A stretch of 64,000 nucleotides of DNA from Pseudomonas bijieensis (GTDB lineage: Bacteria > Pseudomonadota > Gammaproteobacteria > Pseudomonadales > Pseudomonadaceae), in the NCBI RefSeq assembly GCF_013347965.1, contig NZ_CP048810.1:620001-684000 (forward strand). Reading direction: 5' to 3'. Made by a program: the position numbers and the translations under genes. Under the pieces are notes generated by a model that saw nothing but the letters and a program-made list of their open reading frames with translations, was not told the DNA's origin and did not search any database. Of this stretch, positions 22,004 through 23,472 are shown piece by piece (within the stretch, counting starts at the first letter, position 1; each line of letters begins with the position of its first letter).

Positions 22004-22150
22004 GGGCTCCACAAAATCTGCTGCACGATGAAACAGCCAGCTTATCGCCGGCCCAGGCAATGTGATGCCTGGCGGCAGGCGGGTCAAGCCTGTTGGAGGG
22101 GCCGCTTGTCTGGCGCTGCTGTGTACCCCACCGCTTTATTGTGGGAGATT

Positions 22151-23112
22151 CTATGTTGCAGGGGAACCCTGCAACCGTGAATTTGGTTGGTATTCGCTCT
22201 GATTTTTCATCAGGGCGAATGCTACCCGACACAACTTGCGGGCGAGGATAACCAAGGCCTGAGTTCTGGCCAGGCCTCGTGCCAAGAAGGCCTCATAGTA
22301 AGGTTTCCAGGCAGGAGACCGACAGGCCGCCATCGCGGCGTTGTGCGCCAGGCGTCGTAGCTCCCCGTCCCCTTTTTTGCTCAAGTGACGAGGACTGTGC
22401 TTCTTCCCTGAATCTTTGGACGCAAATCCATCCCCAAGAAAGCAATGAATGCATCGCCACTGACAAAGTGACCGCGCATGAATGCGGTCGCCAAGCCAAT
22501 GGCCGTCAGTTCACCAATCCCTTCGATGGCTTTGCAGCGGTTGATGTTTTCAGTGATCCCTGCCGCTTGGCTGGCCTCACGCATTAGTTTCTGAATGGCC
22601 TGATCGGACTCTTTGAAGACCTCCAACTGCCGGGCCAAGATGTCCTTCAGACACGGTTCGTTCGAAAAACTCAGCACGATACTGACGCGGGCCTTGATGA
22701 GTGCCGCACGTTTTCTAAGCAGGTTTTTTAACACTTTGTAGGCTTCTGGAGGTGGGCTCCAGATACGCAGCCTTGCTTGCTCGTTCGTTAGATACCGAGC
22801 CAGCAAACGCGCATCACAAGGATCAGTTTTAGCCCGCAGCCCAATACTTTCACGGTAATGGGCCACCCGATAAGGATCCACAACGTAAACATGAAACCCC
22901 ATTCCATGGGCCAGCTCAGCTGTGTCCAGGTGATAAAAGCTGGTGGCTTCCAGCGCAATCGAGCTTTGGGCTGGTAGCGTTTTGAGCCACCGGCCAAGAG
23001 CTTCGCGGTGGTTGGCGATGGCTTGAGTGATTTTCAGGTCTTCGCGGTAAACGACGATTTCGGCCTTCGCTACATCGATACCAATAACCGTTGGTGAGTT
23101 AAGGATTGTCAT
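22151..23112 (-). pseudogene. IS110-family transposase, frameshifted
   Basis: The N-terminal frame (23112 to 22381) encodes a RuvC-like DEDD domain: GIDVAK, ALEATSFY and KTDPCDARLLARY. The frame then runs off after FIAFLGMDLRPK into a premature stop. A second frame picks up the rest of the Tnp_20 domain: DSGKK, then LSKKGDGELRRLAHNAAMAA, ending at 22151. The shift lies around 22424-22432 and looks like loss of one base; there is no A-rich slippery heptamer to suggest programmed frameshifting. The DSG serine, the likely catalytic nucleophile, is encoded only after the shift. The element is probably unable to move by itself. Confidence 0.85.
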
Positions 23113-23315
23113 GACGAATCCTCGGAGCTAGGGTTTAGGTGCTTGTCGGGGTCTACCTTTGCGCTGGCTTGCCTCTATCGTCGGTTTTACCGATGAATTC
23201 CTTATCGGCGCTTTAGGTAGAAAGGGCGGAACGAGAAGTCTCCCACGGTCCGTACTGGCTAGAGTCGGAATCGAGCTTTTAGTCCCGCCCACCCCTTCAA
23301 GTCTAAACATACAAG
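23113..23315 (-). ncRNA. Probable IS110 bridge RNA region
   Basis: Noncoding 5' end of the IS, on the transposase strand. A 9-base-pair stem (23282-23290 with 23224-23232, one G-U pair) encloses an internal loop closed by a second stem (23266-23269 with 23249-23252). The 5' loop side has AAGCTCG (complement of 23272-23278) and the 3' side has GTGGGAG (complement of 23240-23246). These match the two halves of the REP the IS interrupts. A second stem (23215-23221 with 23152-23158) around hairpin CCGAT/ATCGG (23190-23208) would be the donor loop. Transcript ends are not known. Confidence 0.65.
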
Positions 23316-23472
23316 CGAGCTTGCTCGCGATAGCGGTGTAACAGTCAGCCTCGATGTTGAATGTCAGTCCGTCATCGCGAGCAGGCTCGCTCCCACTGGG
23401 AATCCACGTCGGACACAACAGGTGTGTTCGCTGAAGTCCAAATGTGGGAGCGAGCCTGCTCGCGATAGCGGT
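23314..23472. repeat. REP cluster downstream of the IS
   Basis: Three REP copies: the right part of the interrupted one (23314-23340), an inverted copy at 23373-23397 and a direct copy at 23443-23468. The first two formed a REPIN before the IS split it. Together with the IS noncoding end they fill the gap between the transposase and the gene at 23489. Confidence 0.88.

Follow-up and report, generated by a model that had tools for sequence, protein, structure and literature searches.

The window, that is, the whole stretch of 64,000 nucleotides analysed here, occupies G000:C1:620001-684000 in a genome of 6.73 Mb whose named relatives are Pseudomonas, and it contains a REP that is interrupted by an insertion sequence of the IS110 group resembling ISPpu10 (Table 1). 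A preliminary description of this DNA had proposed that such an element splits a REP with AG (CT on the transposase strand) at both junctions, and this can be read directly in the sequence at 22148-23313. Downstream of the AG at 23314-23315, positions 23316-23327 read CGAGCTTGCTCG; in the orientation of the transposase, the junctions read GCAAGCTCG-CT-[IS]-CTCCCACA.

Table 1. Features of the element and its insertion site, in coordinates of the window.
Feature	Position	Strand	Basis
REP half TGTGGGAG, including the AG core (22146-22147); right target, CTCCCACA in transposase orientation	22140..22147	+	Sequence; intact REPs elsewhere in the window
IS110-group insertion sequence, ISPpu10-like, 1166 bp	22148..23313	-	Seven copies in the genome with a common unit and differing flanks; orthologous empty site in G039
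Rest of the transposase gene, in another frame; stop codon within the right end CATAGAAT	22151..22441	-	tblastn with the intact sister protein P0001, coordinates converted by hand
N-terminal part of the transposase, 243 aa, RuvC/DEDD domain	22381..23112	-	PF01548; comparison with own copies; IS621 alignment
Non-coding left end; the predicted bridge RNA would run in the sense of the transposase	23113..23315	-	Fold; alignment of 29 leaders; identity in the seven own copies
Right donor guide region ATAGAGGCAAG; possible discontiguous pairs with the left end CTTGTAT are CAAG/CTTG and ATA/TAT	23168..23178	-	Comparison with the right donor guide of IS621
Left donor guide region GGAATTC, with GAAT as the match to the right end CATAGAAT	23195..23201	-	29 aligned leaders, AGAATGC in 17
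Right target guide GTGGGAG, pairs with CTCCCAC including the CT core	23240..23246	-	Full 7/7 match in 95 of 102; G130 combines GTAGGAG with CTCCTAC
Left target guide AAGCTCG; full stretch AAAAGCTCG at 23272-23280	23272..23278	-	Match to the left target; covariation with the target in relatives
Second copy of the AG/CT core dinucleotide	23314..23315	.	Sequence
Other REP half CGAGCTTGCTCGCGATAG; left target, ...GCAAGCTCG in transposase orientation	23316..23333	+	Sequence

The genome holds seven copies of the element. Copies in unrelated sites had been named beforehand as the observation that would speak against a guided insertion; within the genome of the window, all seven (7/7) lie in REPs and split them at the identical base, with a left half that reads GCAAGCTCG in six and GCAGGCTCG in the remaining one (L007). 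One could suppose that these are duplicates of one ancestral block of REP and IS, and not the outcome of repeated guided insertion, a view that the identity of the 203-nt leader among the seven copies would suit; however, when 60 bases on each side are compared, the flanks of the seven copies differ beyond the REP halves, and we regard block duplication as having a negligible chance of being correct. The orthologous site is empty in the relative G039 (contig C15), where an uninterrupted REP, TGTGGGAGCAGCGAGCTTGCTCG, is found at the insertion point between stretches that are 86% and 95% identical to the flanks in the window; the end words of the element were sought in 1701 bases of G039 and are absent there. 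The empty REP and the rejoined site differ by 3 nt at the junction, which we count against a guided insertion.

The transposase gene of the window copy is frameshifted after K233, ahead of the catalytic serine, and its product therefore lacks this residue; taken by itself, the open frame matches PF01548 only. An intact protein of 320 aa, P0001, is encoded by L002 (G000:C1:854371-855539) alone of the seven copies. It contains both PF01548 (69.8 bits) and PF02371 (53.1 bits), and passes the NCBIfam model NF033542, 'IS110 family RNA-guided transposase', with 174.7 bits at a cut-off of 140. At E <= 0.001, the PDB sequences matching P0001 are only ISCro4 (2e-22) and IS621 (1e-20), over residues 10-306; S235 of P0001 aligns with S241 of IS621 (a reading of the alignment that allows for a 2-residue offset in the PDB chain), and the DEDD positions align too. 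Because of the frameshift, the window copy is probably not autonomous, and the intact copy at G000:C1:854371-855539 could supply transposase for it. Small indels in the transposase gene occur in six of the seven copies (the window copy and L003-L007), all of them in or beside homopolymer runs; they could stem from errors of long-read assembly or from genuine decay.

The left end comprises 203 nt of non-coding DNA, and the right end is short, with 3 bp left after the stop codon in the intact copy. The TAG stop of the 320-aa transposase (L002; 22151-22153 in the window, minus strand) lies inside CATAGAAT, the presumptive target of the donor loop; some relatives stop earlier. By eye, the right ends of many relatives carry a short G+C-rich inverted repeat just before CATAGAAT. 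It reads TTGCAGGG/CCCTGCAA in the window copy (22156-22174), varies in sequence and is often kept as a hairpin.

Within the non-coding left end, the words AAGCTCG and GTGGGAG follow each other within 45 nt, an arrangement that recurs twice when the leader is dinucleotide-shuffled 20000 times. The first, 5' word is identical to the left target, so that an RNA of this sequence would pair with the bottom strand of the target, and the second, 3' word reverse-complements CTCCCAC and would bind the top strand, core included. This order and strand had been put forward as those of an IS110 bridge RNA, and they do fit the account of IS621 given in the relevant parts of Durrant 2024 (PMC11208160) and Hiraizumi 2024 (PMC11208158). 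The letters of both guides match the REP halves as described, with one correction: the left target guide is followed by AT and not CT, leaving the C of the CT core unmatched (A instead), whereas the right target guide includes the core. CT does follow the left guide in G130 and G009.

In the minimum-energy fold of the leader, an outer stem GGGCGGGAC/GTTCCGCCC and an inner hairpin enclose the two guides, which face each other. Across the loop, AAG-CUC in the region of the left guide is paired with GAG and the following CUU; the guides are partly paired with each other, and the loop originally proposed is not a clean open one. In the consensus fold of 29 aligned leaders (out of 35 distinct ones), the left guide is unpaired and the right guide sits inside a small hairpin; the RNAalifold consensus has 30 pairs, three of them with double changes. 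An Rfam search found no family match in the whole window at gathering scores, nor in 22100-23360 up to E = 1. Folding energy was rejected as proof of the structure, since it is just modestly better than in shuffles (z -1.9; 6 of 200 fold equally well) and the energy of the antisense strand is lower.

This last point bears on the question of which strand is functional. The active molecule might be a small RNA antisense to the leader, comparable to Asr9 of ISPpu9, which the text available of PMC8450116 describes as an antisense sRNA of great stability lying over the 5' UTR of the transposase, and the guides seen on the sense strand would then be its complement. The antisense strand indeed folds lower, both in the mean (-80.6 vs -70.0 kcal/mol) and in the consensus (-24.4 vs -19.6), and the types of guide-target mismatch, used as a strand test in 47 genome-target units with three lineages omitted, carry no strand signal, in that they do not favour wobble on the sense strand (14 vs 12). 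Against this, the sense consensus has the larger covariation term (1.46 vs 0.79), and both loops agree with the sense bridge RNA of IS621 in guide order and strand, while read as antisense the order would equal that of the IS1111 seekRNAs as outlined in PMC11187229. We therefore consider an antisense RNA unlikely, and because of the homology with IS621 we take the functional RNA to be, presumably, the sense strand.

Joined as a circle, the ends of the element would read CATAGAAT-CT-TGTATG. TTGTATG is in place in 106 of the 107 loci with a usable protein match (the exception, L192, has TTGGATG), and CATAGAAT in 103 of 106, the other three stopping at a contig end. The 5' side of the putative donor loop is GGAATTC in 8/29 leaders and AGAATGC in 17/29; its 3' side consists of ATAG, two to three letters and CAAG in 29/29. 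The right donor guide of IS621, according to the passages concerned in PMC11208160 and PMC11208158, has AU, an interruption and then four letters up to the core (A157-U158/C162-G165). The donor guides had been called partial matches to the IS ends. They need not be called so: on the right side, CAAG/CTTG together with AUA/TAT can form a discontiguous pairing of the kind that IS621 would lead one to expect. The match of the left donor guide is short (4-5 letters).

If the guides select the target, the types of REP that are occupied become informative. The genome contains 106 intact sites of the type AAGCTCGCTCCCAC (AAGCTCG, matched by the guide), 777 of the type AGGCTCGCTCCCAC (AGGCTCG), 191 of the type AAGCCCGCTCCCAC (AAGCCCG), and 1120 of the general form GCNNGCNNGCTCCCAC; the window alone has nine intact sites of the form GCNNGCYYGCTCCCAC, six of which are AGGCTCG. 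The guide-matched type, roughly one tenth of the sites, holds six of the seven elements, and the seventh lies in an AGGCTCG REP (Fisher 2.2e-5 against AGGCTCG and 7.0e-6 against both other types; binomial 4.6e-6 against 106/1120). With six of seven copies in a minority type, recognition of REPs as such is therefore insufficient.

We then turn to the relatives. In a protein search at E 1e-40 that covered 249 genomes of the genus, the own genome among them, 33 had the element; an earlier DNA search had it in 16 of 95 relatives. The comparison started from 108 loci, made up of seven own copies, eight further ones and 93 regions fetched from the matches listed, with fragmentary matches left out; 106 passed the filters, and 105 were kept after removal of L040, a duplicate record of G102. 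Left out were L158, which has a broken transposase start, no protein match and, in an AGGCTCG site, a register-shifted guide like that of G163 that would count against a match in a fixed register, and L192 (left end CTTGGATG), whose guide AAGCTCG in an AAGCTCG site would add one match. L037, L044 and L046 end at a contig end and are without a right target, and the left guides of G130 and G009 were set by hand from the sequence.

Over these 105 copies, the left guide agrees with its own left target at 7/7 letters in 45, at 6/7 in 42 and at 1 to 5 in 18, and the right guide at 7/7 in 95 of 102. Among 33 lineages the left-guide match is 5.82/7, compared with 4.83 (sd 0.13) when shuffled, and none of 20000 shuffles is as high; the lineages are related, and these shuffles therefore overstate independence. 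Among 16 distinct guide haplotypes the match is 5.40 against 4.14 (sd 0.22), again with 0/20000. Right-guide covariation is weak, as nearly all guides are GTGGGAG: the observed value is reached by 697 of 20000 shuffles with Watson-Crick pairs, and by 1944 if G-U is allowed.

In other Pseudomonas the left guide shifts together with its target, with some exceptions. In G130 both guides change with the target (AGTTCG/GTAGGAG with AAGTTCG-CTCCTAC); G018 has the guide AATTCG with targets AATTCG or GATTCG; further paired changes are AAGCCGG in G106 and AAGCCGCC in G116, the latter with a right guide, GTGAGAG, that has one mismatch. Guide and target are both AGGCTCG in G098, G010, G160 and four of five cases in G147, and both AAGCCCG in G052, G268 and five of six in G218. 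Counter-cases are G163, with 1-2 of 7 letters in a fixed register and a guide shifted by one base; G240, with the guide AGGCTCG and both copies in AAGCTCG; G174 and X038, with a target C against a guide G at -1; G127 (L154), with a left guide matching at 3/7 and a leader of 126 nt that has no donor loop, so that this copy may be a deletion derivative; and G221 (L168), whose left flank matches at 2/7 and is not REP-like.

Three further observations were made among these loci. In L168 of G221, the flanking 16 letters are identical on the two sides (CTCCCACATTTGGTAG); together with the left flank that is not REP-like, this points to an unusual insertion or a rearrangement. L144 and L146 of G018 nearly share a left flank, GAGCGGARCGCCGCCCGATTCG, that is unlike the other REP halves of that genome and still ends with the guide letters ATTCG. 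L138 and L139 (G102:C45:124425 and 125777) share their direction and are separated by about 1.35 kb.

The preference for the matched REP type was also assessed in 14 genomes having one of three guide types; five of the 19 genomes with counted REPs were dropped for having other guide types, and six of the 48 insertions for having a target outside the three REP types. The matched type holds 34 of 42 insertions, where 23.1 are expected from the intact sites (P 1.6e-6). Much of the effect stems from the genome of the window; without it the effect is weaker, with 28 of 35 insertions matched and 22.4 expected (13 genomes, P 0.006); G240 has 0/2 and G174 0/1 in the matched type. In the five genomes with an AAGCTCG guide, there are 14 insertions at 1624 matched sites vs one at 1486 AGGCTCG sites, which differ from the guide by one A/G letter and have about 13-fold fewer insertions per site (Fisher 0.001). 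The five genomes with an AGGCTCG guide have no preference for the matched type, the ratio running in the opposite direction (9/3632 matched vs 3/389 AAGCTCG, Fisher 0.10). Tolerance of G-U pairs could explain this, in a sample as small as three insertions.

Some of these results would also be expected if the transposase read the REP itself, by its shape or through protein-DNA contacts, and the guide-like words in the leader were coincidental or a trace of REP capture. Most targets across the loci are REPs or REP-like, the fold energy of the leader is unexceptional (z -1.9), and the genomes with AGGCTCG guides do not favour their matched type. This leaves unaccounted for the six of seven copies in the guide-matched type of 106 sites, as opposed to one in the 777 AGGCTCG sites of the same genome, and the left guides that vary by lineage and track the target; direct reading of the REP by the protein is in our view very improbable.

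Taken together, we propose that an IS110-group, ISPpu10-like element was put into the REP by bridge-RNA-guided recombination, and we place the probability of this at about 93%. The element itself, its ends, its insertion point, the match of guides and targets, the covariation of the left guide and the preference for matched REPs in its own genome were all obtained here, and the earlier claim that the insertion site is written in the element is supported by the seven own copies (7/7) and by left guides changing with their targets in relatives. For transcription, strand, RNP assembly, pairing and catalysis the model would be IS621: by analogy with it, the leader RNA would have the polarity of the transposase gene and carry the target loop, a second loop would pair with the element's own ends (CATAGAAT-CT-TGTATG), and the DEDD/serine recombinase would then join the circular element to the REP at CT.

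Membership in the IS110 group agrees with the features found: the domain pair and the NF033542 match of P0001, a long upstream non-coding end, a target loop, a donor loop, a CT core and an ATA/TAT subterminal repeat. The closest model is IS621, which transposes into E. coli REPs and in which a bridge RNA has been demonstrated (PMC11208160, PMC11208158, in the sections dealing with it). Apart from its related protein, it shares with the present element the IS110 group, a leader RNA encoded ahead of the gene, a target loop and a donor loop, the CT core, a REP target and a recombinase combining DEDD and serine residues. It differs in having its own REP and guides, in the spacing of its discontiguous right donor guide (here there are four letters between the paired parts), and in including the core in all four guide pairings, whereas the left target guide here lacks the core C; in the portions of the two IS621 papers concerned, pairing of the core in all four is a detail of IS621 and is not known as a requirement of the IS110 group.

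ISPpu9 and ISPpu10 of P. putida lie in REPs in 7/7 copies each, as stated in the relevant part of Tobes and Pareja 2006 (PMC1525189). ISPpu10 is listed with predicted guides in the legend of Extended Data Fig. 10c of PMC11208160, the only paper found to bring together ISPpu10 and bridge RNA in the literature searched, which lay outside subscription journals and preprints. By description, it is of the IS110 family, inserts into REPs with a 2-bp repeat and has predicted target and donor guides. One protein annotated as ISPpu10 has 67% identity over 96% (among the best 120 of 1116 matches listed). ISPpu9 is likewise similar by description, as an IS110/IS492 element in a REP with AG repeats and a 244-nt 5' UTR, and differs in having the antisense Asr9 and downstream Ssr9 sRNAs (both after the text available of PMC8450116). 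RNA-guided choice of target is common also to the seekRNA elements ISPa11, ISEc11, ISXne4 and ISEc21; ISPa11 and ISEc11 differ in that they are elements of the IS1111 family whose RNA lies downstream of the gene and has the reversed guide order, and natural re-direction through a change of guide has already been described for ISEc11/ISXne4 (PMC11187229, parts concerned).

The element is a real and well-supported case of a mechanism that is already known; what is added here is a natural test of specificity among ~1100 REPs in one genome, along with guide changes among relatives. A REP-type preference within a genome was not found reported in the parts of the literature that were covered, subscription journals and preprints lying outside the search. 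A Pseudomonas genome can hold nearly identical REPs by the hundred, distinct from one another at one or two guide positions, and each such genome therefore offers a ready-made experiment on how strictly single mismatches are discriminated by a natural bridge RNA; insertion counts per REP type provide a natural measure of specificity for tools built on IS110 recombinases.

The guide is also that of the host's commonest type, among the three REP types counted, in nine of the 14 genomes, against a mean of 4.4 after shuffling; 0.6% of the shuffles reach nine. As these genomes were picked for having one of three guides, the counts covered only three REP types and related elements are not independent of one another, we keep this result as tentative. 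It leads us to the speculation, which we regard as rather less than an even bet, that the guides of ISPpu10-like elements drift by point mutation in 'REP space', following the commonest REP type of each Pseudomonas host. Host and element could then be out of step at times, as here, where the guide is AAGCTCG and the commonest counted half is AGGCTCG (777 vs 106). If this speculation is true, guide and host repeat together would form a natural record of RNA-guided retargeting.
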